Shown in pieces: positions 12 to 40,298 of a stretch of 64,000 bases of DNA; the first letter of the stretch is position 1, and every line of letters starts with the position of its first letter. Position numbers and translations under genes: made by a program. The notes beneath the pieces were generated by a model. It saw only the letters and a program-made list of their open reading frames with translations, ran no database searches and was not told the origin of the DNA. The stretch comes from Lachnospiraceae bacterium (GTDB lineage Bacteria; Bacillota; Clostridia; Lachnospirales; Lachnospiraceae): positions 1 to 64,000 of the forward strand of contig JAIDFQ010000063.1 in assembly GCA_029054245.1 (NCBI GenBank), read 5' to 3'.

Positions 12-69
12 CAAGATTTAGCATTTCGTGCCCACGAAATGCGTATCTTGCGGCGTTCCATAGAACGCC
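12..69 (+). other. oriT: oriT-like region with nested inverted repeats
   Basis: Seen: CAAGAT (12-17) pairs with ATCTTG (45-50) around a perfect 10-bp inverted repeat, GCATTTCGTG (21-30) and CACGAAATGC (33-42), with a 2-nt loop. A second perfect hairpin, GGCGTTC (52-58) and GAACGCC (63-69), lies next to it. The sequence TATCTTGC (44-51) resembles the ATCCTG|C nick consensus of MOB-P/IncP-type origins. Placement just upstream of mobC and a MOB-P-like relaxase is the usual arrangement. I infer nicking after G50. The exact nick is not proven, and the origin may extend left of the window. Confidence 0.6.
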
Positions 70-96: not shown

Positions 97-444
97 ATGG
101 CAAGACCAAAAGGCGAAAATGTAATCAGGAAGCACTTTAAACTGACCGAAGAGACAGCAAAACTTTTAGCGGAGCGTTCCAAAGCTGAAAATATGAATGA
201 ATCCGAATACATCCGTTATCTGCTCCTGAACCAGTCGGAGCATCCAAGGAGCAGGAAATTAGAACTTGAGATCATGCGGTTGCGGAATGAGATTAATAAG
301 ATTGGTGTGAATATTAATCAGATAGTAAAAAATAATAATTCCCATATATATAGTGAAGATGATAAAATAAAGATATTACAGTTGATGAATGAAATTAGGC
401 TTGCGTTGATTGAATTCGTGGAATACCCAAGAATAAATTATTGA
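97..444 (+). CDS. mobC: MobC-like relaxosome accessory protein
   Basis: 115 residues. The N-terminal half (residues 10-50) looks like a ribbon-helix-helix DNA-binding unit, with the phrase LTEETAKLLAERSKAENMNE. The C-terminal half carries the helix INKIGVNINQIVKNNN typical of MobC proteins, which bind oriT and help the relaxase nick it. A clear Shine-Dalgarno (AAGGAGT, 83-89) fixes the ATG at 97. In related elements mobC runs directly into the relaxase gene; here a 5.4-kb foreign-looking gene lies between them. The last residues, rich in AT codons, may have been altered by that insertion. Confidence 0.75.
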   Translation: MARPKGENVIRKHFKLTEETAKLLAERSKAENMNESEYIRYLLLNQSEHPRSRKLELEIMRLRNEINKIGVNINQIVKNNNSHIYSEDDKIKILQLMNEIRLALIEFVEYPRINY

Positions 445-464
445 TGCACAGATGAGAGGTCATT

Positions 465-3400
465 ATGAAGAGATCAGATAACATTATTTTACACTTAAGT
501 GATTTGCATTTTTCAACAAAATTATCTGGAACAGATAAGGTGAATTCTGATAGTGTATTGGAAGAATTGACGGAAATATTAAAAACTGTTGACTGGAAAC
601 CAACAATCATCTGCATTACAGGGGATATTGTGGATAAATACGATATTGAGGGCTTTGCTTTAGCTAAGATATGGATAAAGAACTTGGCTGAAATACTTAG
701 CGTGCCGATGGAAAGAATTTTAATATGCCCCGGAAATCATGATTGCTCACGTGATATATTGATTTGCCCAGAAATAAATGTTGCAGATTCGCAAAAGGCA
801 GATCAAATACTATCATATCCGATACCAGATTATTTGTTGAAAAGATTTAGTCAATATAATGATTTTTGTCAGGAATTAGGCATAGTTCCTTACAAGTTTA
901 TGGGGGAAGAATCATATTTAGTCGGTACGAGAATAATTGACAATATATGCTTTTGGGGCTGTAATAGCGAATGGTTTTCATTTCATGACAAATCAGAACT
1001 ATGGCTGGGCAAAAATTATTTAGAGCAAATGAAGCAACAGGATAGCCAAGAAAATAGTGATATTAGAATTGCTATTATGCATCATGGAACAGAATCAGAT
1101 TTTGCTGAAAAGGAAAAGGGATTTTACGAAGATAGAAGACCGGCGTTGAGATATTTGTGGTCGCTTTGTAATATGCTTTTATTTGGGCATACGCATGAAG
1201 GAGCAATTGGTAAACCGAGTTATATGGAAAGCAACTGTTGGAGTGTACGTGCTGGGGCAACTAATATTAATGAAAAATATCCTAATAATGTTAATTTATT
1301 AAAGATACAAAGTGATGGGTTTGAATTAAGACATATTATTTTTTCACCTGCTCAATTAGAAAATCGTTGGACAATAGAGCAACCTGAGAAAAAAAACTTT
1401 TGGAAAATGCAAACAGAAGATTTAGAGAAAGAATCTTGTTTTAGTGCTGATAGAATCAGGAAATTAATGAAAGATTATGTACAAGAGGTAATTGAAAATA
1501 AGGTAAGAGAAATAAATTGTCCACTCAATAGTTTAAAGCAGGAAAAATTAAAGGTAAGACTTGAGCGTATTTATAAAGAATTGCTCAATGGAAAAGAAGA
1601 AAGAAATAGTAAAAATGATTTAACATCCTTATATAATGTTATTGAAAATAACAAGAAGGTGCTGCTTATTGGGGAATTAGGAATGGGAAAAAGCACATTG
1701 ATGGCGCAAACTGTGATTGATGTTTTGGAGAATGGAGAAGAGGTTATTCCGGTTTTTGTACCAGCTAAATCTTTAACATTGACAGATGAAAATAGCGCAA
1801 TCGAATTGCGTGAAGAGATAGATCGTTTTTTGATAGAAAGTTTTCTATTTGAAAATACTTTTCAAGAAGTAATCTTGAATGCAAAGAAAGTATTTCTTTT
1901 TATTGACGGACTGGATGAAATTAATATCACACATATTAAAATTTTATTGAGGCAGATCGAAAGGCTGATGAAGGCTTATCGTAATCTAGCAGCAGTGGTT
2001 TCTACAAGAGTGGCTGAAATTGGAGACATTAATATTTCACAGTGGACAGTATGCGAGATGCCTCCATTGGATATGGAACAAAGAAAGAGAATGTTATTGC
2101 ATGAAGCAGAAGCGCATGGAAAAGTAGGGCAGGAAAAAGATATATTTGTTCAGAAGAGTATGAGCATTATTAGAAAGAATCCTTCTATATACGGATTGTC
2201 CAATACGCCCTTATCTATAAGATTATTATATAAATCTTTTGATTCGGATTTGGATATAGAGAAATTAACAGTGGGCGATTTGTTATTTGAGTTATTGAAA
2301 ATGCGTGCTGCGGAGTGGAGTGAATTGGATTTAAAAGATAATACAAATAATAATTATTTGGCAGCATTTCCAACAGATGATGATAAAATTTATTTGGTTG
2401 GCAGAGTAGCTTATGAGGCATTATCCAATGAAGTATTATCTGTAAAAAGTGCAAAAGTAATCGTAAAAAGTCTTATTCAAAATCAAATGCTTAATAACAA
2501 TCTAGTGGCAGATGAAGCTATAAAGACTCTTATTTTTAATGGACTTATCAGTACAGGCGATAGAATCCGATTCACATATCAGCCATTAGCTCAAGTCGCG
2601 GCGGGCTATTACATGGCAGAGGAAATTATTAATGAGAGGTTGAATATAAGTCAGATACCAGTGGAGTTGTGGCGGGAAATAGCATTTGCAGGCAGTATAC
2701 TAAGAAATTGGAAGGTATTTCCGAAATACAAAGAACTTTTCAAAAATTATATTACGAAGTTGCTACATGAAAATAATAATATAATATATATAATTAGTTA
2801 TATATGCAGTGAACTTATGGATGAGGACATTGCTGTTTGGTCTTTGGAATGCGTAAGTAAAGTGGGATTCAGACCTCTTTGGTATTATGAAAGAGAGAGG
2901 AAGTATTCCGTTACAGTTATTGCTAAAATGATTGTTTTAGCAGGTGATAAAGGGACAAACTGGCTTATTGATGAATACTTAGATTTGAGAATTCCTCTAA
3001 TTAACAGAGGAAGCGGATTTATACATGATTTTCTGGATCAATGGGTTGTATTAGTTGAAGGACGGTTAAACAATGAACAAAAGGAAAAACTGAAAAGAAT
3101 AATTAGAGTCTTAAGTTTTGGGTGTAGTGTTGCCTATTTTTCTGTAAGAGAAGTATTGTGTTATTTGTTGCCAGAAGAGTACGAAGTTGTAGACAGGCTG
3201 GATTGTGTTTTGCAGTTGGCGTGCAAAGAAGAGTTTTATTATTGGGGGCAAAAGCAGTTCTGCCAGATGGCATTAAGTAATAAAGCTATATGTAATTCAG
3301 TTTTAGAAAACAGCGATTATAGCATAAGTGCATTGTATTGGTTGAAAATTAATGATAATGAAATTCCTCCAGTAACGGTTCTTAAGAATTTGTTGCGGTA

Positions 3401-5861
3401 TGTATATGATGGAAAGGATAAAATCAATGAAGATAGCAGTATTTTATTGGAAAAATGTATTGATCGGATCGGGCATAGTAGATGGAAAATTATTTTAAGA
3501 AGAATTATTGCTGAGGGCGATAAAGCACAGGCAGCAGCGGCAGTAGAGTTAGTTAAATATGAGAATGAGAATTTGTTTTTTATCGCGAAAGCATTGACAG
3601 ATGGCATGGTTAATGCTCCAGCGCATTGCATTTATGAACAGACAATGGAATTAGTAGTGCATATGATGGAGAAAGAAAATGTAGAATGGAGTGAAATTTT
3701 ATTTGATAGGGTGCATTTTGTAGCTGGAGCAAATTCAGGGTGTTATAGAATTTTTTTAAAATATCTTTTGGATATACAAGAGGTAGAAGTAGATTTGTTT
3801 ATGGGATGTATTAAGCATATTGGTCCTTATACTCTGCCAAGGTATGCAGAAATCAGGGAGTTGTTTGTCCAAATTTTGAAACGTGTAGAATATAGAAGTG
3901 CATTGATTAAAGCATTGGATTCTTATGATGGAAAAATAAGAGAAGCAGCTAGTATGATTTTGGCGGCCTGTGATAAGAATGATAATGGAAATGCTCTGAT
4001 AATGGCCATTCTTGGTATGCATGATGGCACAGAATATAATGAGTGGCATAAGTTACTTGCTTCTCAAAAATATAATGACATAGCATTAAACCATTTACTG
4101 GGAATGGTTGATTCATTAATGGGAGAGCAAAGGATATTGGCACTGGTAATACTGGCATATAATGGCGTTAAAATTACTGAATACAATAAAGAAGAAGTGG
4201 TTAATGCTAAGTCGAATTGGAAATATTTTTATATCAATGAAATTAATTTGAGTGATTTTGAGTTAAGTGATGAAAATGTCTTTAGAAGATTATATGAGCA
4301 GGAAAAAGAGGACAACATAGAATATGATGTTGCAAAAACTTTATTATGGAAATACCATGATAAATTATGTTTAGAGGAGAGGGTAAAATGTATTCTTTCA
4401 GTGTGGGCGAATGGTTCAGTTCCTAATATTGAAGAAATAATTTTTAATGTGTCTCAACCTGAGCTTGGAAATCTGTTTTCCAAGTTCAGAGAGAATTATT
4501 CACAAAGCAAAAATTATAAAATATTAAGGTGCTTTAACTTTGAAGATGAATTATGTATCGATTGGAAGGGGCTTGTATGGGAGATTTTTTGCAATGATAT
4601 AGATTTAGTTGGAATGGATAAAGATGAGATAGGATTACAGTGGTTATTGCTGGGAAGAAAAAATCCAGCTTATGGAAAAGCGATGGGCGAAGAGATAAGG
4701 AAGGTAATCGACGATGATAGATTGCAGAAAGACAGGTGGCTGGAAAAATATCAGTGGCTGCTAATTTTGGTTGATGAGTTTACAGATTATGATAAAAAAA
4801 TTCTAGCAGAACATGTACATATGGATAGAGAAATTATGCATGAAACTTCCAGTTCGTTAATATGGAGATTGGGTGAAGAATTGTTAACGGGGGAAATAGA
4901 AATAAACGAAAAGGAAATAAAAAGGAGAGAGAAAATTGGAGATATTGATTTAAAATTGCTAGAAACGACAAAGGAATCAGAATTATTACAAAAAGATACT
5001 TTAGATATTTTGTTTGCAAAAGCCGAAAATGATGAAGTATTAGAAGACGGTTTGTTGACAGATATTGAAGAGCAAGGGAAAAATGGCATATTAATCGGAG
5101 CAATGCTTAGATATATTTACGGAAGAAAAATGACTGTAGAAGCTGGCTTTGAATGCAATAAGATTTTCTTCACGTTTGCCAGAGTTGAATCAAAAGAGTT
5201 TCAGAAAATATTGTCATGTGTCAGAACAGAATTTTCTTATAAAATTCGGTATGACTTAGAATTTAAACGACAGTATAACGAATTAATTATGAAAAAAATG
5301 CAAAATTGTAAGGATGATTTGCAAAAAGATTTTATAATGTATGAATTTACCAAAATGAAAAAAGAAGAGATGACAATAGCACAATTAGAGAATGTATTAA
5401 TATATCTGTTTGGATATGGTTCTATGAATATGTACGGAATATACATTATGAAAAATATATTACCCATTATAAAAAGTGTGTCTAATGTCGAGAAAAAAGA
5501 AAAAATTTCAGAAACGATTTATAGATGTTTATTGAAGAATGAATATTCGTCTGATAATGAAAAAATATTTAAGAGAAACTCATATTGTGATATGGCATTA
5601 GTTGTTGTTTATTGGTGGCTTAAGGATGATGTAACTGATTTTGGGATGAAGCTATTTGCAAATGGTATGACAAAATTTTTCTATGAAAAAGAAAAATGGG
5701 GATTAGAAGAGAAAGAGAAGTCATTTATGGAGAAATACGAAGAGTTTACAGAATTAATAGAATTTTTGACAAGTGATATGAAAGAAAAGATTTTGTTAAA
5801 ATTGCATGATTATCCGTTGTTAGAAGCAAGAGTAATGGGGAAATTACTGAAAGGTATTTAG
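465..5861 (+). CDS. metallophosphoesterase-NACHT STAND protein, probable anti-phage defence
   Basis: 1798 residues. Residues 1-250 form a calcineurin-like phosphoesterase with all its metal motifs: SDLHF (D13, H15), GD at 53-54, GNHD at 90-93, MHH at 205-207 and GHTH at 241-244. A NACHT-type P-loop NTPase follows: Walker A GELGMGKST (403-411), Walker B FLFIDGLDEI (ending near 486), and a helical segment to about 740. The last 1000 residues are helical with no motif I recognise, probably the sensor. Proteins with effector-NACHT-sensor layout act as bacterial NLR-like immune sensors; nuclease activity of the phosphoesterase is inference. It is strongly AT-rich compared with mobC and the relaxase on either side and interrupts their usual adjacency, so it looks like later-acquired cargo. 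SD GAGAGG (453-458) supports the ATG at 465. Confidence 0.75.
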   Translation: MKRSDNIILHLSDLHFSTKLSGTDKVNSDSVLEELTEILKTVDWKPTIICITGDIVDKYDIEGFALAKIWIKNLAEILSVPMERILICPGNHDCSRDILICPEINVADSQKADQILSYPIPDYLLKRFSQYNDFCQELGIVPYKFMGEESYLVGTRIIDNICFWGCNSEWFSFHDKSELWLGKNYLEQMKQQDSQENSDIRIAIMHHGTESDFAEKEKGFYEDRRPALRYLWSLCNMLLFGHTHEGAIGKPSYMESNCWSVRAGATNINEKYPNNVNLLKIQSDGFELRHIIFSPAQLENRWTIEQPEKKNFWKMQTEDLEKESCFSADRIRKLMKDYVQEVIENKVREINCPLNSLKQEKLKVRLERIYKELLNGKEERNSKNDLTSLYNVIENNKKVLLIGELGMGKSTLMAQTVIDVLENGEEVIPVFVPAKSLTLTDENSAIELREEIDRFLIESFLFENTFQEVILNAKKVFLFIDGLDEINITHIKILLRQIERLMKAYRNLAAVVSTRVAEIGDINISQWTVCEMPPLDMEQRKRMLLHEAEAHGKVGQEKDIFVQKSMSIIRKNPSIYGLSNTPLSIRLLYKSFDSDLDIEKLTVGDLLFELLKMRAAEWSELDLKDNTNNNYLAAFPTDDDKIYLVGRVAYEALSNEVLSVKSAKVIVKSLIQNQMLNNNLVADEAIKTLIFNGLISTGDRIRFTYQPLAQVAAGYYMAEEIINERLNISQIPVELWREIAFAGSILRNWKVFPKYKELFKNYITKLLHENNNIIYIISYICSELMDEDIAVWSLECVSKVGFRPLWYYERERKYSVTVIAKMIVLAGDKGTNWLIDEYLDLRIPLINRGSGFIHDFLDQWVVLVEGRLNNEQKEKLKRIIRVLSFGCSVAYFSVREVLCYLLPEEYEVVDRLDCVLQLACKEEFYYWGQKQFCQMALSNKAICNSVLENSDYSISALYWLKINDNEIPPVTVLKNLLRYVYDGKDKINEDSSILLEKCIDRIGHSRWKIILRRIIAEGDKAQAAAAVELVKYENENLFFIAKALTDGMVNAPAHCIYEQTMELVVHMMEKENVEWSEILFDRVHFVAGANSGCYRIFLKYLLDIQEVEVDLFMGCIKHIGPYTLPRYAEIRELFVQILKRVEYRSALIKALDSYDGKIREAASMILAACDKNDNGNALIMAILGMHDGTEYNEWHKLLASQKYNDIALNHLLGMVDSLMGEQRILALVILAYNGVKITEYNKEEVVNAKSNWKYFYINEINLSDFELSDENVFRRLYEQEKEDNIEYDVAKTLLWKYHDKLCLEERVKCILSVWANGSVPNIEEIIFNVSQPELGNLFSKFRENYSQSKNYKILRCFNFEDELCIDWKGLVWEIFCNDIDLVGMDKDEIGLQWLLLGRKNPAYGKAMGEEIRKVIDDDRLQKDRWLEKYQWLLILVDEFTDYDKKILAEHVHMDREIMHETSSSLIWRLGEELLTGEIEINEKEIKRREKIGDIDLKLLETTKESELLQKDTLDILFAKAENDEVLEDGLLTDIEEQGKNGILIGAMLRYIYGRKMTVEAGFECNKIFFTFARVESKEFQKILSCVRTEFSYKIRYDLEFKRQYNELIMKKMQNCKDDLQKDFIMYEFTKMKKEEMTIAQLENVLIYLFGYGSMNMYGIYIMKNILPIIKSVSNVEKKEKISETIYRCLLKNEYSSDNEKIFKRNSYCDMALVVVYWWLKDDVTDFGMKLFANGMTKFFYEKEKWGLEEKEKSFMEKYEEFTELIEFLTSDMKEKILLKLHDYPLLEARVMGKLLKGI

Positions 5862-5886
5862 AAGAGAGAGCTAGGAGGAGTGCTTT

Positions 5887-7470
5887 ATCGCAATCACTAA
5901 ACTATCCTGCATCCACCAGACAGGAAAAAAATACATGGCTATGCACCTTGCAAACGCCATTTCCTACATCACAGACGAAGAAAAGACGCAGGCAGGCGCA
6001 CTGGTGGGAAGCCATAACTGCAACGCAGATACCGCCCTGCAGGAAATGCTTGCAACGAAAAGGAAGTTTGGAAAGATAGATAAGCGGCAGGGCTACCACT
6101 TTATCATATCTTTTAAAAAGCAGGAAGTAAGACCGGAAACTGCTATGGAGATCACACAGAAGTTTGTGGAGAAATATTTTGGGGATGATTTCCAGTGCCT
6201 GTATGCCACCCATGATAATACAGGGCATGTTCACAGCCACATTCTTTTCAACAGCGTGTCATGGCGTACCGGAAAAAAGTACCGCTACGAAAAAGGCGAT
6301 TGGGCAAAAGAAATCCAGCCCATTGTCAATGAACTCTGCAAGGAGTATGGTCTTTCCATACAGGATATTGAGGTAGGCACAGAAAAAGAGCCAAAGAAAT
6401 GGGATAAAACAAAACAGGGTATTTTCAAATGGAATCACCAGATCAGACTGGATGTGGAGGATTCCATTTCTTTTGCAAATAATTATGAAAATTTCCTGAA
6501 ATTAATGGAATTGAAAGGATATGAGATAAGGCGGCAGTCAGGGGAGGCTTATCTGAAACCTATGGGAGAAAAGCGGTTTATCCGCCTTACGGATATTTCA
6601 GGATATTATACAAAAGAATCCATTAAGAATCAGATAGAAAAGGGAATACGGCGTAACACTGTCAGGACGGAAAACCGTACCCCAAGGATTATCGGGTGCA
6701 GGAAAAATTACCGAAGATATATTCCGCCAACATCATACCAAAAGGCATTTCTTGCAAAAATGTACCGCACCGGACAGCTAAAACGGAAGCCCTACAGCCA
6801 GATGTGGAGATACAGGGAGGAAGCTGCTAAGTTTGAAAAACTGCAGTCGCAATACCTGTACCTGTGCAGGCACAGCATCCGCTCCGCAGAGGAATTAGAA
6901 AAACGGAAAGAGAATCTTGACATCCGCATGAATGATCTGGACGAAGCAAGACATCAGATATACAAACAGAGATACCCACATAAGTCAGCCCTTGCGCTAT
7001 TAAATATAATTGAAGAGAATGAGACACGTGCTTCCTATTACAAACAGGGAAGCCTTTTTTATGCCCCTAATTATGAGAAATGGAAGGAGGCGGCAGAAAT
7101 TTTAGTACAGAAGGGATATACGATAAAACAGATTTCAGAAATGAAGGAGGCATATCAGAAGGAGCTTGCATCCGTAGCAAGGGCAAAGCGTGAGCTTAAA
7201 AAAGAAGAAACCCTGATCAGCGGTATTCTTTCAGGAAGAAGCAGGACGCAGGTAATGGAGATTACAGTACCGGAGATAAATGCACCGCATAAAGCACAGA
7301 AAAATATAGAAGAGACAGATAGCATACGGAAAGCTATTTCCGCCGGGAAAGGGGGTGATGCAGAAAATATAGGATCAATCCGGGCAGAAATGCCAGCCCA
7401 TACAGAAGCAGGCCATTTAGAAAAGCAGCCAGCCCATAATGGGAAGAAACAGCCGGAACAGGCAAGATAG
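5887..7470 (+). CDS. MOB-P-type relaxase, apparent ATC start
   Basis: Nicks oriT and leads the transferred strand. The catalytic signature HVHSH-ILFN lies at about residues 114-122 and the motif I tyrosine at Y27 (NAISYIT), counting from 5887. The first ATG is at 5935, but the frame is open upstream and reads IAITKLSCIHQTGKKY, the expected first strand of this family (normally MAITK...). A strong SD, AGGAGG (5873-5878), sits 8 nt before codon ATC at 5887, where relatives have ATG. I therefore place the start at 5887. If ATC is not used, translation would begin at 5935 and lose 16 residues of the fold. The C-terminal third is basic and coiled-coil-like. Total 527 residues; 511 from the internal ATG. 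Confidence 0.85.
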   Translation: MAITKLSCIHQTGKKYMAMHLANAISYITDEEKTQAGALVGSHNCNADTALQEMLATKRKFGKIDKRQGYHFIISFKKQEVRPETAMEITQKFVEKYFGDDFQCLYATHDNTGHVHSHILFNSVSWRTGKKYRYEKGDWAKEIQPIVNELCKEYGLSIQDIEVGTEKEPKKWDKTKQGIFKWNHQIRLDVEDSISFANNYENFLKLMELKGYEIRRQSGEAYLKPMGEKRFIRLTDISGYYTKESIKNQIEKGIRRNTVRTENRTPRIIGCRKNYRRYIPPTSYQKAFLAKMYRTGQLKRKPYSQMWRYREEAAKFEKLQSQYLYLCRHSIRSAEELEKRKENLDIRMNDLDEARHQIYKQRYPHKSALALLNIIEENETRASYYKQGSLFYAPNYEKWKEAAEILVQKGYTIKQISEMKEAYQKELASVARAKRELKKEETLISGILSGRSRTQVMEITVPEINAPHKAQKNIEETDSIRKAISAGKGGDAENIGSIRAEMPAHTEAGHLEKQPAHNGKKQPEQAR

Positions 7471-9977: not shown

Positions 9978-11804
9978 TTGAAGAAATTAAACGTGTTTAC
10001 CTGTCTTTTTTATGGAACAGTGACAGCCGGATGCACCTATCTGGGGGTTTTTCTTGGCAGCATCATCCATCCGGGCACGACGCTGTATTCTTTTGTTCCG
10101 GCACTTAAGGAGCAGATGGCGAATCCGCTAAAAATCAAAGTGACAGCCTACACCCCATACACCATGGCGGCAGTATTCTTCACAGCACTTTTATCTGTCA
10201 TGGTGCAGAAAACAAACCGGAAGAATTACCGTTTCGGGAAGGAGTATGGTTCGGCAAGGTGGGCGGATGCGGCAATGCTGACAAAACAGCTAGGGGATAA
10301 GGATAATTACCACCGCATCCTCTCACAAAACCTGCGCCTTTCCATGAATACAAGAAAGACTATGCGCAACAACAACATCTTCTGTATCGGCGGCTCCGGC
10401 GCAGGCAAGAGCATGTTCCTCATCAAATGCAACATCATGGAGATGCAGGGCAGTTTTGCCGCCACTGACCCAAAAGGGGAACTGCTTGGGAGCGCAGGAA
10501 ATTATTTAAAGGCAAACGGTTATCAGATAAAGGTTTTTAACCTGATCAGCCCGAAGGAGAGCAACAAATACAATCCCTTTTCCTACATAAGGACGGAGAC
10601 GGATGTACTCAAGCTGATTACGAACCTGATAAAAAATACCACGCCAAAGAAAAGCAGCAGCAACGATCCATTTTGGGAAAACGCAGAAAAACTTTTCCTA
10701 CAGGCGTTATTCTATTATGTGTGGATGGAGATGCCGCCGGGCAGGAAAAATATCGTGTCCGTACTGGAATTGCTGGCAGAAGCAAAAAGGGAAAAGGATG
10801 AGCCCAGCAGGCTTGACCGCCGCATGGAGCTTCTTGCAAGGAGCAGCCCTTTAGGGGAAGACCACCCGGCGGTGCGCCAGTACAGGAAAGTCATGGACGG
10901 AGCGGATAATACCGTAAAGAGCATCATCATCAGCGTAAATGCCAGGCTTGCTTTCCTTGAAAATGAAGCCATAAAGGAACTGTTAGAAACGGATGAGCTG
11001 CATTTTGGTGAATTAGGCACAGGGAAGAACAGTGACAAAAAGACAAAAACGGCTTTATTTATTGTCACGCCGGATTCCGATAAATCCTATGCGTTTCTTG
11101 TGGGAATGCTCTATGAACAGTTGATGCAGGAACTTTATTTTCAGGCAGACACAAAGTATGGCGGCAGGCTCCCCATCCATGTATCGCTCCTGATGGACGA
11201 ATTTTACAATACGCCGCTCCCTGATTCCTACCTGAATTTCTTAAGCACCATGCGGAGCAGGGAGATATCCAACGTGATCGTGGTGCAGAATATCGCACAG
11301 ATCAAGGAACTGTTTAAGGACGGATGGGAGACCGTACCGGGCAATGCGGACACCCTTGTCTATCTTGGCGGCAATGAGCAGTCAAGCCATAAGTACATCA
11401 GCGAATTGCTGGGGAAAAGCACAATAGATAAAAGAAGCAGCGGTGAGACCCTGGGAAAGCGTGGCAGTTCCAGCCGGAATTATGATGTCCTTGGGCGTGA
11501 GCTTATGACGTCCGATGAAGTGAGGAAACTGGATAATAAAAAATGCATTGTCCTGATCCGGGGCTGTGACCCGGTGATAGATTTTAAGTTCAACACCTTT
11601 AAGCATCCCATGTTCAAAAGGAGCGGTGACGGGGAAGGGAAGTGGTACATCCACCACCCGGAAAGGAAAAAGGGCATAGATATCATAGATAAAGAAACAG
11701 CAGAACGCCTGAAAAAAGAGGCAGGGGAAGATGGGAATGTCATCATCACCACCATAACCGCAGAAGATCTGATAAGGCTTGGAAATGCATCAGGAGAGAA
11801 GTAA
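9978..11804 (+). CDS. virD4: VirD4/TraG-type coupling ATPase
   Basis: 608 residues. The type IV coupling protein links the relaxosome to the secretion channel and powers DNA export. Two N-terminal membrane helices (about residues 6-28 and 53-72) are followed by Walker A GGSGAGKS (138-145) with the downstream phrase TDPKGELL, and Walker B LLMDEF (404-409). The family phrase NVIVVQNIAQIKELF is present. The start is TTG at 9978, just past the upstream stop; the best SD-like sequence is the AGG inside the upstream stop region, so initiation may depend on coupling. Confidence 0.9.
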   Translation: MKKLNVFTCLFYGTVTAGCTYLGVFLGSIIHPGTTLYSFVPALKEQMANPLKIKVTAYTPYTMAAVFFTALLSVMVQKTNRKNYRFGKEYGSARWADAAMLTKQLGDKDNYHRILSQNLRLSMNTRKTMRNNNIFCIGGSGAGKSMFLIKCNIMEMQGSFAATDPKGELLGSAGNYLKANGYQIKVFNLISPKESNKYNPFSYIRTETDVLKLITNLIKNTTPKKSSSNDPFWENAEKLFLQALFYYVWMEMPPGRKNIVSVLELLAEAKREKDEPSRLDRRMELLARSSPLGEDHPAVRQYRKVMDGADNTVKSIIISVNARLAFLENEAIKELLETDELHFGELGTGKNSDKKTKTALFIVTPDSDKSYAFLVGMLYEQLMQELYFQADTKYGGRLPIHVSLLMDEFYNTPLPDSYLNFLSTMRSREISNVIVVQNIAQIKELFKDGWETVPGNADTLVYLGGNEQSSHKYISELLGKSTIDKRSSGETLGKRGSSSRNYDVLGRELMTSDEVRKLDNKKCIVLIRGCDPVIDFKFNTFKHPMFKRSGDGEGKWYIHHPERKKGIDIIDKETAERLKKEAGEDGNVIITTITAEDLIRLGNASGEK

Positions 11805-14220: not shown

Positions 14221-16629
14221 TTGAGGTTATTCCAGGACAAATTTTCTATCTATAAAAAGGCAGGGGAGCCTTTATACAAAACCCCGAAGAGCGTGCAGGA
14301 GTGCATAGAGATCCTTAAGATTGCACCGGACGGTATCTTTGAAGTGGCAGGGAACCGCTACAGCAAAAGCTACCTGTTTTCGGACGTGAACTACAACACC
14401 ACCAGCGAGGCGGAGCAGGTGGGGATATTTGAAAGCTACTGCAAATTCTTAAATGCCATGGACGTGGAGTTCAAGATCACCATCAACAACAAAAACCGGA
14501 ACATGAGATCCCTGCGTGAAAAGGTATTGTTCCAGAAAAAGGGTGACGGGAACGATGTGGAGCGTGGCTGCTACAACCAGATCATGGAGAAGAAGATCAT
14601 GGAAGGAAAGCAGGGCATAGAGCAGGAGAGATACCTGACTGTCTCCATCATCAGGAAGAATTATGAGGAAGCAAAGGCGGCGTTTGCCAGCCTTGAGGCA
14701 GTATTGCAGAAAGGTTTCGGGGAGCTGGGGAGCAGCCTTGCCACTTTAAACGGAGTGGAACGCCTGCGTACCCTCCATGATTTTTACCGTATGGGCGAAG
14801 AGGAATATTTCTCCTTCGATTTTGAAGAGGCGGTAAGGGTGAGCCGGGATTATAAAGATGATATCTGCAACAGCATGTTAAAGTTTTACCCTACCTATAT
14901 GCAGGATGAAAAGCGGTTTGCCAAGGCACTTTTTATCAAGAAATACCCAAGTTCCTTATCGGACAGATTCCTCACAGAACTTGCAACCGTTCCGGCGCAT
15001 ACCATTATCAGCATTGATGTAGCGCCCATCCCCAAGGATGTGACCACCAGTACCCTACAGAAGAAGTACATGGGGATCGAGAGCGACATCATCCGCCAGC
15101 AGAGGGTAAGGAACAAGAATAACGATTTCTCTTCCGATATTTCCTACAATAAGCGGACAGAGAAACAGCAGATCGAGGAGATCATGGATGACGTGCGGGA
15201 GAATGACCAGCGGCTCTTCTATGTGGCAGTGACCATCATCATCAAGGCAGATACGAAGGAAGAACTGGAAGCCATAGGGGAAACCTTAGTGACTATCGGC
15301 AAAAGGAACTCCTGCCAGATAGAGGCGCATTACCTGAAACAGAGGGAAGCACTGAATACTGCATTGCCGGTCGGTGTGCGTCAGGTGGAGACCATGCGCA
15401 CCCTTATGACACAATCCCTTGCGGTACTCATGCCCTTTAACGTGCAGGAGCTTTACCTTCCGGGAAAAGGAGGCACGTATTATGGCGTGAACCAGGTCAG
15501 CCGCAACATTCTCTTTGGAAACCGGAAAAGGCTGGTAAATGGGAACGGTTTTATTTTTGGCGTACCCGGATCGGGGAAGTCCTTCTTTGCCAAGATGGAG
15601 ATGGGGAATGTATTTTTGAATACGGATGATGATATTATTGTGATTGATCCCCAGCATGAATATTTCGGCATTGCGGAGCGGTTCGGCGGCCAGGTGGTAG
15701 TCCTCTCCACCTATACAGGGAACTACATTAACCCTATGGCACTGCCGGAGGATGTATCTGACATTCAGGGCATCATTGCGGAAAAGGGAGAGTTCATGCT
15801 TGGCATCTGTGAGCAGTGTATGGGAGAGGCGCTTAATTCCCGACAGAAATCTATTATAGACCGCTGTGTACGCCTGCTCTATCAGGAGATTAAAGAGGAA
15901 TGCATGAGGAACAGGGGGAAACAGGAAGGGGAGAAAACAAAGACTTTATGGAATCAGAAAACCTTACAGGACTATTATGAAATATTGATTGTACAGCCGG
16001 AGATGGAGGCAAAGGAACTTGCCCTTTCGCTGGAATTATTTATCGGCGGTTCATTAAATATCTTCGCCCATGAAACAAATGTGGATATCGACAACCGCTT
16101 TCTGGTCTATGGCATCCGGGATATGGGGAAGGAATTATCCGCTATCTCCATGCTTGTGATGATGGAGAATATCGGGAACCGCATCATGGAGAATGCAAAG
16201 CGGGGCAGGGCTACATGGCTTGTGATAGATGAATTCCATGTGCTTCTTGATAAGGAATATTCTGCAAAATACCTGTTTTCATTATGGAAGAAGGTGCGGA
16301 AATTAGGTGGGCTTTGTAGTGGAATTACGCAAAATGTGGTCGATATGCTGCAGAACTATACAGCCACCACCATGCTTGCCAATTCGGAGTTTGTGGCATT
16401 ATTGCGGCAGGCACCTACTGACCTTGAAAAGCTATCGGAAGTGATCAACATCAGCCCGGAGCAGCTTAAGTTTGTCCGGGGAGCGCAGAGCGGAACAGGG
16501 ATATTGAAGCATGGCAACATGATCGTGCCTATGGATATCACTGTCGATAAGGACAGCCCCATCTATAAATTATTTTCCACCAACCCTTTTGAGGACGGGA
16601 AGGAGGCTGCCCATGAAGAAGGACATTGA
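14221..16629 (+). CDS. virB4: VirB4/TraE-type conjugation ATPase
   Basis: 802 residues. Energises assembly of the type IV secretion channel. The N-terminal region (1-400) is the VirB4 CagE-like part. The C-terminal ATPase has Walker A GVPGSGKSF (447-455), the phrase IVIDPQHEY, and Walker B WLVIDEFHVLL (D670, E671). The start is TTG at 14221 preceded by AAAGGAAGGAG, which is a strong SD. The last codons overlap the next gene by 17 nt. Length fits the ICE VirB4 group (about 790-810). Confidence 0.9.
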   Translation: MRLFQDKFSIYKKAGEPLYKTPKSVQECIEILKIAPDGIFEVAGNRYSKSYLFSDVNYNTTSEAEQVGIFESYCKFLNAMDVEFKITINNKNRNMRSLREKVLFQKKGDGNDVERGCYNQIMEKKIMEGKQGIEQERYLTVSIIRKNYEEAKAAFASLEAVLQKGFGELGSSLATLNGVERLRTLHDFYRMGEEEYFSFDFEEAVRVSRDYKDDICNSMLKFYPTYMQDEKRFAKALFIKKYPSSLSDRFLTELATVPAHTIISIDVAPIPKDVTTSTLQKKYMGIESDIIRQQRVRNKNNDFSSDISYNKRTEKQQIEEIMDDVRENDQRLFYVAVTIIIKADTKEELEAIGETLVTIGKRNSCQIEAHYLKQREALNTALPVGVRQVETMRTLMTQSLAVLMPFNVQELYLPGKGGTYYGVNQVSRNILFGNRKRLVNGNGFIFGVPGSGKSFFAKMEMGNVFLNTDDDIIVIDPQHEYFGIAERFGGQVVVLSTYTGNYINPMALPEDVSDIQGIIAEKGEFMLGICEQCMGEALNSRQKSIIDRCVRLLYQEIKEECMRNRGKQEGEKTKTLWNQKTLQDYYEILIVQPEMEAKELALSLELFIGGSLNIFAHETNVDIDNRFLVYGIRDMGKELSAISMLVMMENIGNRIMENAKRGRATWLVIDEFHVLLDKEYSAKYLFSLWKKVRKLGGLCSGITQNVVDMLQNYTATTMLANSEFVALLRQAPTDLEKLSEVINISPEQLKFVRGAQSGTGILKHGNMIVPMDITVDKDSPIYKLFSTNPFEDGKEAAHEEGH

Positions 16630-17296
16630 AAAAGCATTGAAAGAATTTTTGATGGATGTAAGGACTACCGGGGAAGAGAGGAAGAAGGGAATCCCGCTTA
16701 TCACATTTGTATATAAGGAAGAGGACAAGGCAGTGCTGCTTAAGGCGCTGCCTTTGCCGTTGGCGGATATCCAGCCGGAAAGGGATATACCTGTGGGGAA
16801 GGAACTTTTATATAGGGTGGATTTCTTCAGGGAAGGGGAAGCGAAGGTATCGTTCGGCGTACTGCCTGCAATAAAAGAACCTGCCACATTTTTAACGCTC
16901 CTTGACAATGCCATCAAAACCGGCGACAGGAAAGCCGGGTATCAGGGTCTTTGCGATTACCTGAAATTCCACAATGCATTATGCGGTCTGGAAGCCCTTG
17001 CGGAAGGGGAACTGCCGCTTATGGGGCAGACACCGGAAAATACGGGAGAAACCAAAAAGTCCGGAGAAGATGCAGCGGCAGAAAATGCAGCGCAGGCAGA
17101 AAAAAGCAGGGAAGCAGGAGCACAGGACAGATATACCCCTGCCAACACAGCGTACTACAAGGAAGTCCTCTCTTATGTGCAGACAGGCAGGGATATCCTG
17201 AACGCCTGCCCTTATGGAACGCCCTTGCCGCCATTCCCTGACCGCAGCGCATTTATGGCAGGGTGGTATCGGGAGAACGGGCAGGGGAGCCTATGA
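16613..17296 (+). CDS. conjugation-module protein of unknown function
   Basis: 227 residues from the ATG at 16613, chosen because AGGAGG (16601-16606) sits 6 nt before it; longer in-frame starts lie deep in virB4. Residues 1-115 are a small alpha/beta domain with SseB-like character in its rhythm, but I cannot assign a family with confidence. Residues 145-185 are a low-complexity E/K/A linker, and 186-227 a short helical end. No signal or membrane segment. It overlaps virB4 by 17 nt and the NlpC/P60 gene by 4 nt (ATGA), so it belongs to the channel operon. Confidence 0.65.
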   Translation: MKKDIEKALKEFLMDVRTTGEERKKGIPLITFVYKEEDKAVLLKALPLPLADIQPERDIPVGKELLYRVDFFREGEAKVSFGVLPAIKEPATFLTLLDNAIKTGDRKAGYQGLCDYLKFHNALCGLEALAEGELPLMGQTPENTGETKKSGEDAAAENAAQAEKSREAGAQDRYTPANTAYYKEVLSYVQTGRDILNACPYGTPLPPFPDRSAFMAGWYRENGQGSL

Positions 17297-19647
17297 GGAT
17301 TAAAAGGACAGATAAAAATTTTACAGTCAGGCAGAAAGCGGGCAGGAAGATCCATTACGCCGGGCAGGGGAAGAAATATACGGAGAATACTGCAAATTTC
17401 TCCCCAAAAGAAAAGCAGGATGCGATCCGGCAGAAGAACCTTCCAGGGGCAGGTACAGGAATACAGGCGAAAACGCAGATACAGAGACAATCCAATGCTG
17501 GAAGGGATGCAGGGGAATTTCTTGCAGATGATACAGCAAAATCCTGTCAGCAGGAGCATGGGAACAGTGCAGGCGGCAGTAATGGAAGCAAATGTGGAGA
17601 TTTGGCTGTATTTGGAAATCTCCATGTAAAAAGACCACTGCAGAAATACCGGAAGGAATCTGTTCTGAATCAGGAACAGCCAGCAGGGAGCCGTCAGCCA
17701 GAACAGCAACAGTATCAGAATCAGGGGCAACAGGTGCAGAGACCTTCCGCTTGCCATGAAAATACCATAAAGACAAAAGAGCCAGCCTTTCACAGGAAAA
17801 CAGATACTCCATCCAGTATTAAGAGGGCAGATGGTTTTATTTTGAAAGAGCGTAAAGGTAAAAAAGAAAAAGCACAGAAATCAAAATCAGTAACATCCAA
17901 AGCACACAGGGAAAAATATGCCGGGGAATCCCGGAGGGAAATATCATCAGGAAATTTTGCTACAGAGAATAAAGCAGGAACCCTTTCTGCAAGAGGGTAT
18001 ACGCAGACTTTTTCCGACAGGAGGGATGTGCAGATTTCCAAATATAAGAGGAAGAAGTTTTTCAGGTCAGGAAAAGAAAAATACAGCCGCATGAAATCAG
18101 GCAGAGAAAATGCAGGTGTAGAGGCAGATACAGCAAAAAACGCAGGAACACCCAAAATACCAGAGAATTACCGGATAGAAGCACAGCCGCCCCAAATGCA
18201 GGGTACGGGAGAACCGGCTTTATTGCAGGTGCAGAATAATATTCCAATAAATAACACCAGCACCAGCACCAGCCATATCCAGAAAAGGAATGCCGGGGAT
18301 TCCATCCGCCAGCGTGAGGGAGACATCCCCGGCAGAAAGGACGGAACGGGCAGGAAGGATAAAAAGAATAAAAAAGGCAAGGGAAAAGATAAGGATGCGA
18401 AAAAAGATAAGAGCCGCAGCAATAGCAAGAAAGGGAAGGACAGGGCAGCCGCTTTCAGGCTGCTCTCCTATGCTTCGGATAAATTTTCACAGGAAGAACA
18501 GAAGGACAGCCTTTTAAAAGTGGCAAAGGATTTACTGGCCGGGAAAGCAAAAGCGGCAGTTGCGGGGAAACTTCTTTCTATAGGTGCATCCCTGCTCCCT
18601 GCTCTTATCCCTGTTTTTATTGTGACAGTCATCATCACCCTGCTCTTTAATTCCCCTTTCTCTATCCTGCTCCCGAAGCTGTCAGAGGAGCCGGGAGCGG
18701 TGGAGGTGCTTGCGGAATATACGGAGGAGTTCAGGGAAAAGGTACAGGAGGAGCTTGCCGGTTCCGGCAGCGGGGATGAAACAGAGCTTATTTATGAGGA
18801 CTATGAGGGCGACGGGGAGCCGGACAACATGGCGGATATCCTTATGGTTTACATGGTGAAGCATGGGTTCGGCGATACCGCAACGGTAATGACGGAAAAG
18901 AACAGGAGGGCATTAAAAGATACTTTTGATGAAATGACATCCATGAGTACCTCTTACCGCAGGGAGGTTGTGGAGCAGTCTTACGAGGAAGAGGATTTTT
19001 ATGGAAACGTCACCATAAGGACAGAGGAAGTGGAGATAAAAATAAAGGAAGTACGCATTACGCTCCTTACCAGTGAGGATATCATCAGGACAGGGATATT
19101 TACAGAGGAAGAAACAGAAATCTTACGTTACTTAATGTCGCCGGAGGTACTGGAAAACATAGAAGGGCTGACAGGCGGCTATGGAAGCCCCGGTGCAGGG
19201 AGCCTGACACCGGAGGAAGCGGAACGATTAAACCTTGGCGGTGATGTGGGATCGCAGGCAGTCAAAAATGCCCTTGCAAGGCTTGGCAAGCCATACAGCC
19301 AGGCAAAGCGTGACAGCGGGGATTATTACGATTGCAGCTCCCTCACTTATTATTCCTATAAAGAGGCAGGAATCACCCTTTCTTACCATGGTTCCAACAC
19401 TGCCGCATCACAGGGGCAGCTTTTATCCGACAGGGGATGTGAAATAGCTTATGAGGATATCCAGCCGGGAGATCTGATCTTCTACAGCTTTACCAGAAAT
19501 GGCAGGTACAAAAATATATCCCATGTGGCGGTCTATGCAGGGAACGGTTATCTTGTGGATGCATCTTCCTCAAAGGGATATGTGGTGTTCCGTCCGGTCT
19601 ACTCCACAGGGAAGATCGTCATGTGTGGCAGGCCGTCATGGCTGTAG
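17293..19647 (+). CDS. membrane-anchored NlpC/P60 peptidoglycan hydrolase of the conjugation system
   Basis: 784 residues from the ATG at 17293 (ATGA overlap with the gene before). Residues 1-420 are a long basic, low-complexity cytoplasmic region rich in K, R, Q and S. A single membrane helix follows at about 425-455 (LLSIGASLLPALIPVFIVTV). The extracellular part ends in an NlpC/P60 domain (about 650-784) with the catalytic cysteine in YYDCSSL (C681), the histidine in ISHVAVYAG (H744) and the phrase PGDLIFY. It likely opens peptidoglycan for the mating channel. The huge basic cytoplasmic region is unusual, but the reading frame and coding bias are continuous. Confidence 0.85.
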   Translation: MRIKRTDKNFTVRQKAGRKIHYAGQGKKYTENTANFSPKEKQDAIRQKNLPGAGTGIQAKTQIQRQSNAGRDAGEFLADDTAKSCQQEHGNSAGGSNGSKCGDLAVFGNLHVKRPLQKYRKESVLNQEQPAGSRQPEQQQYQNQGQQVQRPSACHENTIKTKEPAFHRKTDTPSSIKRADGFILKERKGKKEKAQKSKSVTSKAHREKYAGESRREISSGNFATENKAGTLSARGYTQTFSDRRDVQISKYKRKKFFRSGKEKYSRMKSGRENAGVEADTAKNAGTPKIPENYRIEAQPPQMQGTGEPALLQVQNNIPINNTSTSTSHIQKRNAGDSIRQREGDIPGRKDGTGRKDKKNKKGKGKDKDAKKDKSRSNSKKGKDRAAAFRLLSYASDKFSQEEQKDSLLKVAKDLLAGKAKAAVAGKLLSIGASLLPALIPVFIVTVIITLLFNSPFSILLPKLSEEPGAVEVLAEYTEEFREKVQEELAGSGSGDETELIYEDYEGDGEPDNMADILMVYMVKHGFGDTATVMTEKNRRALKDTFDEMTSMSTSYRREVVEQSYEEEDFYGNVTIRTEEVEIKIKEVRITLLTSEDIIRTGIFTEEETEILRYLMSPEVLENIEGLTGGYGSPGAGSLTPEEAERLNLGGDVGSQAVKNALARLGKPYSQAKRDSGDYYDCSSLTYYSYKEAGITLSYHGSNTAASQGQLLSDRGCEIAYEDIQPGDLIFYSFTRNGRYKNISHVAVYAGNGYLVDASSSKGYVVFRPVYSTGKIVMCGRPSWL

Positions 19648-21500: not shown

Positions 21501-21512
21501 ATGGGTGACGAT

Positions 21513-22640
21513 ATGGATAAAAAGAAAATAACTAATATGGAAGTAAAGAAGAAAAACAGGAATGAAGTTTTCCGTTATATCTGTAAACAGGGAACGGTGT
21601 CAAACCCCGATATTTCATATAATATGAAGATCAGCCTGCCTACGGCAACGCAGATTACAAAAGAACTGACGGCGGAAGGGTTATTGGAGGAGAAAGGGGA
21701 ACTTAAGTCAACCGGAGGAAGAAGGGCGAAAGCCTTATCAGCAGTAGTCAATGCCAGACTGGCGGTAGGGCTGGATATTACTAAAAACCATATTGCGCTG
21801 GTGCTTACCAATATTGTGGGAGAAATTCTGAAATATGAACGTATTCACCAGCCATATGTCTCCGGAGAGGTTTATTATCGAAAAGTAAGTGAAAGATTGG
21901 AACATTTTCTGGATGAAAGCGGCATTGAAAGGGATAGAGTTTTAGGGGTAGGCATATCCTTTCCGGGAATTATTGATTTGGATAAAGGGCAGATCACTTA
22001 TTCCCATATATTAGGTGTAGAGGCTGTACCACTTGATTCGGTAAGCGCCTTTTTTTCCTATCCATGCTTTTACCTCAATGATGCCAATGCAGGGGCTTAT
22101 GCAGAGGGATTTCATGGGGATGAGGCGGAGCGTTTTTTTTATCTTTCATTAAGTAATACGGTTGGCGGAGCGATTTTCGGCGGAAAAGAGCTGATACAAG
22201 GCAAAAATTTCCGGTGCGGTGAAGTCGGACATATGACAGTTGTTATGGACGGGGAAAGCTGCTATTGTGGGAAAAGGGGATGTCTGGACGCTTATTGTGC
22301 TGCATGGCATTTATCTGATGCGGCGGATGGAAAACTGGAACAGTTTTTCTGCCTGCTGGACCAGGGGGATGCAGGGGCGGTGAAGATATGGGATTCTTAT
22401 ACAGATTATCTGGCTATTGCAGTGAATAATATTTACATGGTTCTGGATTGTGATATTGTTTTAGGCGGCTATGTGGGAAGCTATATGGGTACGCACCTTC
22501 AGGAACTATGGGATAAAGTGGCTGGGAGAAATACTTTTGGGGAAAAGAATCCATATGTAAAAGCCTGCAATTATAAGGTGGGTGCGGCTGCATTAGGAGC
22601 GGCTTTGAAAGTGATAGAGAGTTTTGTCAGCCAGATATAA
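21513..22640 (+). CDS. ROK-family transcriptional repressor
   Basis: 375 residues from the ATG at 21513 (an in-frame ATG at 21501 overlaps the operator and would add 4 residues). Residues 1-70 are a winged helix (KKNRNEVFRYICKQGTVSNP ... SLPTATQITKEL). The rest is a ROK sugar-kinase-like domain with GLDITKNHIALVL, GVGISFPGIID, and the zinc-binding run CYCGKRGCLDAYC. Such XylR/NagC-type regulators sense a sugar or sugar phosphate. Its gene has its own promoter and sits at the head of the cargo cassette, with a terminator after it, so it very likely controls the adhE operon. Confidence 0.85.
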   Translation: MDKKKITNMEVKKKNRNEVFRYICKQGTVSNPDISYNMKISLPTATQITKELTAEGLLEEKGELKSTGGRRAKALSAVVNARLAVGLDITKNHIALVLTNIVGEILKYERIHQPYVSGEVYYRKVSERLEHFLDESGIERDRVLGVGISFPGIIDLDKGQITYSHILGVEAVPLDSVSAFFSYPCFYLNDANAGAYAEGFHGDEAERFFYLSLSNTVGGAIFGGKELIQGKNFRCGEVGHMTVVMDGESCYCGKRGCLDAYCAAWHLSDAADGKLEQFFCLLDQGDAGAVKIWDSYTDYLAIAVNNIYMVLDCDIVLGGYVGSYMGTHLQELWDKVAGRNTFGEKNPYVKACNYKVGAAALGAALKVIESFVSQI

Positions 22641-22660
22641 AATAAGGATTGTATAGTTGC

Positions 22661-22695
22661 AAGAAGAAGTTTCAGAAATGGGACTTCTTTTTTTG
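22661..22695 (+). terminator. terminator after the ROK gene
   Basis: AGAAGTTTC (22665-22673) pairs, with G-T pairs, to GGGACTTCT (22680-22688) and is followed by a run of T to 22694. It separates the regulator transcript from the adhE operon. Confidence 0.65.
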
Positions 22696-22768
22696 TGTGC
22701 ATTTTTAATAAAAGCATGGGCGAGGTTTTGGCAGAAATGACGAAAGTGTAGGATTTATAGAAAATATA

Positions 22769-38684: not shown

Positions 38685-40298
38685 ATGTTAAAACAGCAGA
38701 CAAAATTAAGGGTTAGATTATATGCACGATTATCCAAAGACGACGGGGATGCTGATAAAGAGAGCAACAGCATTACCAACCAGTTGCAGATGTTAAGGTA
38801 TCACGCTAAAGAAAAAGGCTTTGAAGTGATAGGAGAGTACGTGGATGATGGAATTTCCGGGACTACCTTCAACCGACCAGACCTGAACCGTATGATCAAG
38901 GATGCCATGAATGACAAAGAGTCAAGCGGCATCATGGTTAAGGATATGTCACGTTTCGGGCGTAACAATGCCATGTTCATGTATTACGTGGAAGAAATAT
39001 TCCCAAACAATGACATCCTGTTTATCGCCCTGAATGATGATGTTGACACAAGGTTCGATGAAAACGAGATGATGCCCTTTAAATCCATTATGAATGAGTA
39101 TTATGCACGTGACACATCAAAGAAAATCCGCAGTGTCAAGAAAACAATGGCTCTGAGTGGCGGCTTCTGTGGTTCCTTTGCCCCATATGGCTATATGGTT
39201 GATCCGGAAAACAAGCGGAAACTGTTGGTCGATCCTGAAACAGCCCCTGTTGTCAGACGCATTTTTGAACTGTCGAAGCAGAGTAACAGCGTCCACCAGA
39301 TTGCAAGGACATTATGTGAGGATGGAATTTTGATTCCGAGGGCATACAGGGCAATGAAAAACGGTACACTGGAAACAAGTACAGGATTTAAGTTCCCGAC
39401 GGACTGGGTAGGGAAAAATGTGAAGATGATCTTGGAAAATCAGGTGTATTTAGGGCATATGGTATCCCATAAGACACAGACAAAGTCATTCAAGAACAAA
39501 AAACTTGTGTCAGTTCCCGAAGAGGAATGGATCATAGTACGGAATACCCATGAGCCGATTATTGACGAGGAAACTTTTGAACTGGTGCAGAAATTTATCA
39601 GTGTGAAAAAGCAGCATAATAAAACAAAACGCCCCAATATGTTTGTAGGGCTTGTGAAATGCCCTGACTGTGGGCGCAACATGGCATTTTCAAATCCGAA
39701 TGGGAGAGAACCCCGCTTCCGCTGCAGAACCTATGCACGAAACAGCAATCTATGTACGACACATGCGATTTCATATGACGCATTGAAGCAGATAGTCATG
39801 GGCGATATCCAGAAGCATATCAGGAACATGGAATCGTTGGGAGAGCAGTTCATTGAAGAAATGCATGAGCTGAGCGAAAAGGGCGGCGGACAGAAAATCC
39901 AGCAGTTTGGACAGAACTTAGAAGCAACAGAAAAACGGATTGCAGAAATAGACAATATGATTATGAAGCTCTTTGAGCAGAATGCTTTAAGGAAGATTTC
40001 AGATGAACGGTTTGAAAAAATGTCATCAGCTTATGAGAGTGAGCAGAAGGAGCTTAACCAGAAGCGGAACGATTTAAAGGCAAAGATAAAAGCTGAGGAA
40101 ATGAAAACCCAAAACACCAATCAGTTTTTGGAAACCATCCGGAAATATGAAACAGTAACAGAGTTGAACCGTTCCATGCTGGTAGAGCTGATAGACAGCA
40201 TTTATGTGTATCAGGCAGAAGGGATCGGGAAGGAACGAAAACAGAGAGTAGAAATTAACTATCGTTTTCTTGCGGGGTCTCAATGTGGTATTACCTGA
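38685..40298 (+). CDS. large serine recombinase (ICE integrase/excisionase)
   Basis: 537 residues. The resolvase domain has the catalytic serine in LYARLSKDD (S17) and the arginines in MVKDMSRFGRN. A recombinase domain follows, then a zinc ribbon (CPDCGRNM, C326/C329, with FRC...C further on), and a coiled coil (about 400-480). It would integrate and excise the element. Its natural C-terminus is probably VEINYRFL; the last residues AGSQCGIT appear to come from the joining sequence at the attachment site. SD GGAAAGGAG precedes the ATG. Confidence 0.9.
   Translation: MLKQQTKLRVRLYARLSKDDGDADKESNSITNQLQMLRYHAKEKGFEVIGEYVDDGISGTTFNRPDLNRMIKDAMNDKESSGIMVKDMSRFGRNNAMFMYYVEEIFPNNDILFIALNDDVDTRFDENEMMPFKSIMNEYYARDTSKKIRSVKKTMALSGGFCGSFAPYGYMVDPENKRKLLVDPETAPVVRRIFELSKQSNSVHQIARTLCEDGILIPRAYRAMKNGTLETSTGFKFPTDWVGKNVKMILENQVYLGHMVSHKTQTKSFKNKKLVSVPEEEWIIVRNTHEPIIDEETFELVQKFISVKKQHNKTKRPNMFVGLVKCPDCGRNMAFSNPNGREPRFRCRTYARNSNLCTTHAISYDALKQIVMGDIQKHIRNMESLGEQFIEEMHELSEKGGGQKIQQFGQNLEATEKRIAEIDNMIMKLFEQNALRKISDERFEKMSSAYESEQKELNQKRNDLKAKIKAEEMKTQNTNQFLETIRKYETVTELNRSMLVELIDSIYVYQAEGIGKERKQRVEINYRFLAGSQCGIT

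Follow-up and report, generated by a model that had tools for sequence, protein, structure and literature searches.

What a gene coding for a metallophosphoesterase (MPE) fused to a NACHT-type NTPase does between mobC and the relaxase gene, i.e., amidst the mobilisation genes of an ICE, is the question raised by the locus considered here. The gene locates to the window, meaning the whole stretch of 64,000 nucleotides from a Lachnospiraceae bacterium (contig JAIDFQ010000063.1) that was analysed, which begins at contig base 1, 96 nt 5' of mobC. The answer considered most probable (about 0.75) is that it encodes an NLR-like immune protein (NACHT/STAND) of the DS-8 type, which the ICE carries as defence cargo in a slot between these two genes and whose putative C-terminal sensor, NACHT switch and MPE effector would together give phage defence.

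The reading frame is exact and uninterrupted, starts with ATG and encodes 1798 residues, whereby the MPE (residues 8-245) is followed by the NACHT domain (residues 399-547) and by residues 740-1798, an order that corresponds to the layout of effector, NTPase and large C-terminal region. The MPE part is matched by the calcineurin-like Pfam family PF00149 (E 2.8e-10, 41.4 bits, cut-off 21.5), and an alignment of seven MPE sequences, namely the window protein, its 91% identical homologue in L002 and the matches in L077, L078, L079, L080 and L003, revealed invariant metal-motif columns (D13, H15, G53-D54, G90-N91-H92, H206-H207, G241-H242 and H244). The profile built from these seven sequences matches LMO2642 (7e-10) and SbcD/Mre11 nucleases (2e-9 and weaker), with weaker matches to purple acid phosphatases and Rv0805/Icc, and as a consequence both a nucleotide signal and a nucleic acid come into consideration as substrate. 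For the NACHT domain, Pfam PF05729 scored 29.7 bits when the region was scanned alone (cut-off 26.7) and 26.0 bits, slightly below that cut-off, in the scan of the whole protein; the motifs GELGMGKST (with K409) and FIDGLDE, read from the sequence, are what we take to be its P-loop and Walker B. The original prediction of an MPE fused to a NACHT domain and a long C-terminal region is hence borne out by the intact frame, the Pfam matches and the invariant metal motifs, residues 1-250 and 400-490 both matching the families named for them.

Table 1. Features of the window, with positions counted from its first base and the basis of each assignment.
Feature	Position	Strand	Basis
Two perfect inverted repeats (21-30/33-42 and 52-58/63-69)	21..69		Repeat search; directly 5' of mobC
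mobC, relaxosome accessory protein, 115 aa	97..444	+	Pfam NikA-like 8e-10, MobC 2e-7
Exchanged module: mobC tail, cargo gene and relaxase ribosome-binding site	371..5886	+	Column conservation, 10 loci; unrelated cargo, homologous flanks
MPE-NACHT protein P0001	465..5861	+	1798 aa, ORF call; full-length L002 homologue 91% identical
MPE domain, residues 8-245, presumed effector	486..1199	+	Pfam PF00149, invariant motifs, dN/dS
NACHT P-loop NTPase, residues 399-547	1659..2105	+	Pfam PF05729
C-terminal region, residues 740-1798, presumed sensor	2682..5858	+	Isolated region matches neither a family nor a PDB entry; dN/dS 0.16
Relaxase ribosome-binding site AGGAGG, within exchanged module	5873..5878	+	Sequence
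Relaxase, frame from ATC 5887 (first ATG 5935)	5887..7470	+	Pfam Relaxase 1e-38; ATC in 10/10 loci
VirD4-type coupling protein, ICE backbone	9978..11804	+	Pfam T4SS-DNA_transf 2e-53
VirB4/TraE-like ATPase, ICE backbone	14221..16629	+	Pfam P-loop_TraG 5e-13; VirB4 label inferred
Large serine recombinase, probable ICE integrase	38685..40298	+	Pfam Recombinase 3e-24, Resolvase 1e-21; role inferred

The C-terminal stretch from residue 740 onwards comprises about 1060 residues and would be expected to determine the trigger. Searched alone, residues 740-1798 gave zero matches in Pfam at E 10 and zero in the PDB at E 1, residues 746-1798 gave zero matches in PADLOC at E 1, and in a sample of the phylum the latter stretch was found in 1 of 299 genomes, this being the window's own. 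Scans of the whole protein returned two sub-cut-off matches within this part, RelB_like_antitoxin (Pfam, E 0.0055, residues 754-775) and PRK14023 (NCBIfam, E 0.17, residues 1246-1319), both of which were put down to chance. The composition of the region, low in proline and glycine, would be compatible with a helical sensor.

Comparison with known systems identified defence proteins as the best models in both NCBIfam and PADLOC. In NCBIfam this is DS8_antiphage (NF053861), which aligns with residues 10-515 (E 8e-36) and yields 123.1 bits against a cut-off of 790; in PADLOC it is PDC-S60, a candidate family only, whose 1027-position model matches residues 8-526, i.e., the MPE and the start of the NACHT domain (E 3e-28), and leaves the C-terminus unmatched. 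According to the DefensePredictor report (Science 2026; PMC13092281), DS-8 is a single protein joining a metallophosphatase to a NACHT domain, its phage defence is lost when residues of either domain are mutated, and its substrate is unknown, the authors pointing to cyclic nucleotides. As DS-9 was described there to carry a related MPE and the phosphoesterase domains of DS-8 and DS-9 were tested in defence, the earlier statement that effectors of this type are little studied has been overtaken (PMC13092281). The window protein resembles DS-8 in holding an MPE with intact motifs and a NACHT domain in one chain, but it differs in size (1798 aa against a 994-position model, the match ending at model position 483, residue 515), in its longer and unrelated C-terminus, and in its origin from an ICE of a Lachnospiraceae genus, DS-8 having come from an E. 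coli screen. Membership in DS-8 proper was thus rejected on account of the score and of the C-terminal half, which is not homologous. Identity amounts to 19-20% with two proteins found by the DS8 profile whose alignment spans MPE and NACHT (L077, L078) and to 27-29% over the MPE parts of L079 and L080, and within the class the DS8 model was matched in 7 of 291 genomes at E 1e-20, the window's included, with one match above the cut-off.

The layout of effector, NACHT domain and C-terminal sensor is likewise that of the NLR-related bNACHT proteins, of which bNACHT25 has a DNase of the PD-(D/E)XK type as effector and NCH1 as its C-terminal domain (PMC12169576), whereas the window protein has an MPE in the former place and a C-terminus without Pfam family in the latter. 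The Avs (AVAST) proteins are, like the window protein, large STAND immune receptors, and an Avs3 relative occupies the equivalent slot in L097 (and, judged by DNA identity, in L094); however, the window protein matches the PADLOC models of Avs2 weakly (2.2e-5 and 5e-4), and since these matches cover the P-loop region only and not the NTPase together with the C-terminus, membership in Avs was rejected. Calcineurin-type domains were listed among STAND effectors in a survey of 2021 (PMC8195603). With DS-8 and this survey the MPE-NACHT layout has to be regarded as already known, which renders the window protein a distant variant with a C-terminus of its own.

A full-length homologue, 91% identical, resides in the same slot in L002, and between these two alleles dN/dS of the MPE-NACHT gene is 0.13 over 1798 codons, with values of 0.05 for residues 1-310, 0.12 for residues 381-740, 0.16 for residues 741-1798 and 0.53 for the linker (residues 311-380). 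In L002 the relaxase frame is broken (15421-17308) and its remnant runs, as judged by eye, into coupling-protein-like and other sequence, meaning that this ICE has decayed; that the MPE-NACHT gene is intact beside it hints at a value to the host. The protein is rare, occurring in 2 of the 37 genomes of the genus, the window's included. Plasmids returned partial matches only (11 records, none covering 80%) and phages returned none, while peptide patterns, which reach close relatives only, found it in no viral contig and, among genome contigs, only in L002. A search of 299 genomes of the family at E 1e-10 identified, besides the protein itself, only a separate 309-aa MPE protein.

The element was assigned as an ICE because it encodes a relaxase, a coupling protein, a VirB4-like ATPase, an NlpC/P60 hydrolase, which is also among the genes downstream of the relaxase, and a large serine recombinase. 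The inverted repeats 5' of mobC are, given their position beside mobC and the relaxase, probably part of oriT. The MPE-NACHT gene follows mobC in the same orientation after a gap of 20 nt, and a scan for terminator-like sites revealed none on the + strand (two sites, both on the - strand, with 2.1 in shuffles); from orientation, gap and the lack of such a site on the + strand, the gene may be co-expressed with mobC and the relaxase. Promoter-like sites occur at shuffle level (29 versus 28.1), which is compatible with a separate cargo promoter as well as with none. The GC content of the gene is 32.6% as compared to 43-48% in seven downstream ICE genes; as mobC is likewise AT-rich (35.7%, and 37.9% over codons 1-88), the contrast holds against the downstream neighbours, so that the AT-richness noted for the gene stands relative to these but not relative to mobC.

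The mobC-relaxase interval was surveyed throughout the genus by searching 37 genomes with the relaxase at E 1e-100, which gave 12 matches in 10 genomes. Two of these loci (L098 and L100) are truncated at a contig end and do not include mobC, wherefore they were left out and ten loci remained readable, all ten carrying cargo in the interval, with 1,621 to 7,183 nt between the starts of mobC and relaxase. The GC content of the cargo is low throughout (26-42%), and in none of the ten was an opposite-strand cargo ORF of at least 200 aa found. The MPE-NACHT gene takes the slot twice, in the window and in L099, which, judged by length and sequence, represents the same contig as L002. Four of the other eight loci hold recognised two-gene systems. 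L041, a second ICE of the same relaxase subfamily within the window's own genome, carries Lamassu LmuA and LmuB (4214-7143; PADLOC 8e-103 and 7e-177), L097 carries Avs3a (PADLOC E 0) and Avs3b (4.5e-38), which are considered divergent members because their NCBIfam scores lie under the curated cut-offs, L094 carries Avs3, called only via 73% DNA identity to L097 over 6.6 kb, and L096 carries Gabija GajA (PADLOC 2e-91) and GajB (4e-33) together with an 828-aa protein. NCBIfam, given LmuA, LmuB and GajB (GajA being outside that set), named neither Lamassu nor Gabija. A fifth locus, L093, holds a DUF2971 protein matching the PADLOC candidate PDC-S31 (4e-20). The slots of L091 (3171-5265) and L095 (2882-5057), 79% identical at the DNA level, contain a DUF4238/SEC-C protein with a partner of 276-292 aa, L091 in addition a 477-aa protein of unknown kind and a small ORF labelled Smr-like by eye; the L091 copy of the partner has no match in PADLOC, Pfam or NCBIfam, and the pair, which was not recognised as defence, is put forward as a candidate for a new defence pair. 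Finally, L092 holds a set of genes resembling, as judged by eye, those of flavodoxin and ferredoxin, and its cargo seems metabolic. With the latter locus and the pair of L091 and L095, the slot cannot be regarded as purely defensive. Two observations were made in passing: the 828-aa protein encoded after GajA and GajB in L096 (3294-5780) has no PADLOC, Pfam or NCBIfam match and is possibly the product of a Gabija-associated gene, and mobC of L092 (5143-5466), the sole readable locus with metabolic-looking cargo, has a premature stop at codon 75.

As a control, 35 other relaxase loci with 33-46% identity were taken from 397 genomes of the family. Here mobC and relaxase are at most 385 nt apart, 26 of the 35 loci show an overlap between the two genes (median interval -14), and the 385-nt intervals of L057 and L063 contain no recognisable cargo; intervals of 310 nt in L067 and L070 are not genuine, as the stretch is mobC itself. 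The mobC-relaxase pair is thus indeed interrupted in the window, as had been claimed. When ten genes from the window's ICE, among them mobC and the relaxase, were searched against PADLOC at E 0.001, just three matches came up, all of which were taken as spurious: the VirB4-like ATPase and the coupling protein were matched by mad8 (2.9e-16 and 1e-4, respectively) and the recombinase by LmuB (1e-4). Outside the genus, the relaxase matched 3 plasmid records, at 42% identity (E limit 1e-80), and no viral contigs, a search of 295 genomes of the order at E 1e-115 returned only the window's own, and relaxases in the 397 family genomes otherwise reach at most 49% identity; within these searches, the slot is confined to one genus. 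Among the literature matches listed, titles and the beginnings of abstracts contain no description of a defence slot between mobC and relaxase, nor of a relaxase started at AUC, and passages of PMC12479173, PMC10250203 and PMC11104534 did not concern the slot either. An anti-phage gene on an ICE is known with spbK of ICEBs1 (PMC8880864); both cases are ICE-borne, but in the window the cargo lies between mobC and relaxase, where sister elements hold unrelated systems.

Between the ten loci the flanks of the slot (mobC codons 1-88 and the first 600 nt of the relaxase) share 72.7-92.8% DNA identity, whereas blastn revealed related cargo in three pairs only, apart from a 242-nt stretch common to L091 and L092. 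Sister elements hence carry unrelated defence genes in the same interval between homologous flanks, by which an ICE defence hotspot is recognised. The nearest relaxase to that of the window is found in L092 (92.8%), yet the cargo there is a different one, and the cargo relative in L099 (91.6% identity) is bordered by flanks that are merely 86-88% alike, which together indicates that the movement of cargo is not tied to that of the backbone. The first ~90 codons of mobC are kept across the genus while its tail varies with the cargo; column conservation over the ten loci fades past position ~370, inside mobC, and resumes at ATC 5887, from which it follows that the cargo is exchanged together with the end of mobC and the ribosome-binding site of the relaxase. 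No site-specific exchange machinery was identified, and homologous recombination in the flanks would be enough to explain the exchange.

The point at which conservation resumes is most likely the start of the relaxase. While the relaxase had been predicted to start at ATG 5935, its frame most likely begins at ATC 5887-5889: ATC occupies this position in all ten loci of the genus (the window, L041, L091-L097 and L099), a cargo-specific ribosome-binding site of the GGAG type lies a few bases 5' of it, and in 8 of the 10 no in-frame ATG, GTG or TTG occurs between the preceding stop and the ATC, the candidates in L093 (TTG) and L094 (ATG, TTG) lying 5' of the ribosome-binding site. Over codons 2-16, most differences are synonymous (99 versus 59 pairwise codon differences), with amino acid changes at codons 6, 14 and 15 only. 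At the position of the ATC, 33 of the 35 distant loci have TTG, ATG or GTG, the alignment of the other two (L071, L075) being shifted, with ATG one codon further on. The simplest reading is that the relaxase is probably AUC-initiated and the ATC forms the right border of the exchanged module. A more far-reaching idea, which we put forward tentatively and hold to be possible though doubtful, is that the relaxosome operon of this ICE lineage contains a slot dedicated to immune cassettes, in which mobC tail, defence gene and relaxase ribosome-binding site would be swapped as a unit ending at the AUC start; immunity would thereby be wired to transfer, in that mobilisation genes and defence gene would be read jointly, and the weak start would hold relaxase output low irrespective of the cargo. 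If true, the slot would be a ready place to look for unknown defence systems.

That several related elements hold other phage-defence systems in the same slot renders a phage-defence gene probable also in the window, and the earlier proposal of an ICE-borne defence gene gains support from the survey of the interval, in which Lamassu, Avs3 and Gabija came to light. It was nevertheless considered that the protein may be mainly directed against competing plasmids and ICEs, sister ICEs in the same cell included, rather than against phages. Lamassu-type systems reportedly act on plasmids as well, and the presence of Lamassu in the same slot of the sister ICE L041, which shares the window's genome, reveals that such ICEs do meet, which together with the embedding of the MPE-NACHT gene in a transfer operon speaks for this idea. 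The very coexistence of the two sister ICEs in one genome speaks against it, as does the fact that DS-8, the nearest protein tested, was scored against phages (PMC13092281), and we regard it as rather unlikely.

Considerably less probable is a role as conjugation regulator or accessory factor, e.g., in the removal of a nucleotide signal or in DNA processing at the relaxosome, as might be reasoned from the position between two relaxosome genes and from the likeness of the MPE profile to LMO2642, SbcD/Mre11 nucleases and Rv0805/Icc. Given that unrelated genes, several known defence systems among them, fill the same place in sister ICEs and that no recognisable cargo occurs there in the 35 distant loci, transfer requires no fixed function at this place, and in L002 it is the relaxase frame that is broken while the MPE-NACHT gene persists. 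The least probable of these explanations is that a foreign gene was inserted by chance and serves neither ICE nor host, to which a GC content far below that of the downstream ICE genes might point; it is rendered unlikely by the dN/dS between the two alleles and opposed by the low GC and the uniform strand of the larger cargo ORFs in every readable locus.

For an NLR-like immune protein of the DS-8 kind, the following course of events is conceivable. Initially, the C-terminal region would sense a phage product or the damage resulting from infection, whereupon the NACHT domain would bind ATP and presumably oligomerise. The assembly thus formed may turn on the N-terminal MPE, which would then cut a phosphodiester substrate, either a nucleotide signal or nucleic acid, and this cutting is expected to halt phage growth, probably at the expense of the cell. 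With the window protein, MPE-NACHT proteins come to include a further type, which stems from a Lachnospiraceae genus and whose C-terminus is unrelated to that of DS-8. The locus moreover points to an address within a conjugation operon, namely a gap of some one to seven kb in which sister elements carry Lamassu, Avs3, Gabija and unclassified genes, whereby unclassified cargo such as the DUF4238/SEC-C pair and the DUF2971 protein becomes a set of defence candidates, and the conserved ATC start of the relaxase bears on how transfer is kept in check. The same ICE carries further genes of another kind: in the stretch that separates the conjugation genes from the serine recombinase (21501-30443), genes for ROK, aldehyde/alcohol dehydrogenase, zinc-type dehydrogenase, MFS sugar transporter and PfkB kinase proteins form an apparent sugar-use cargo.
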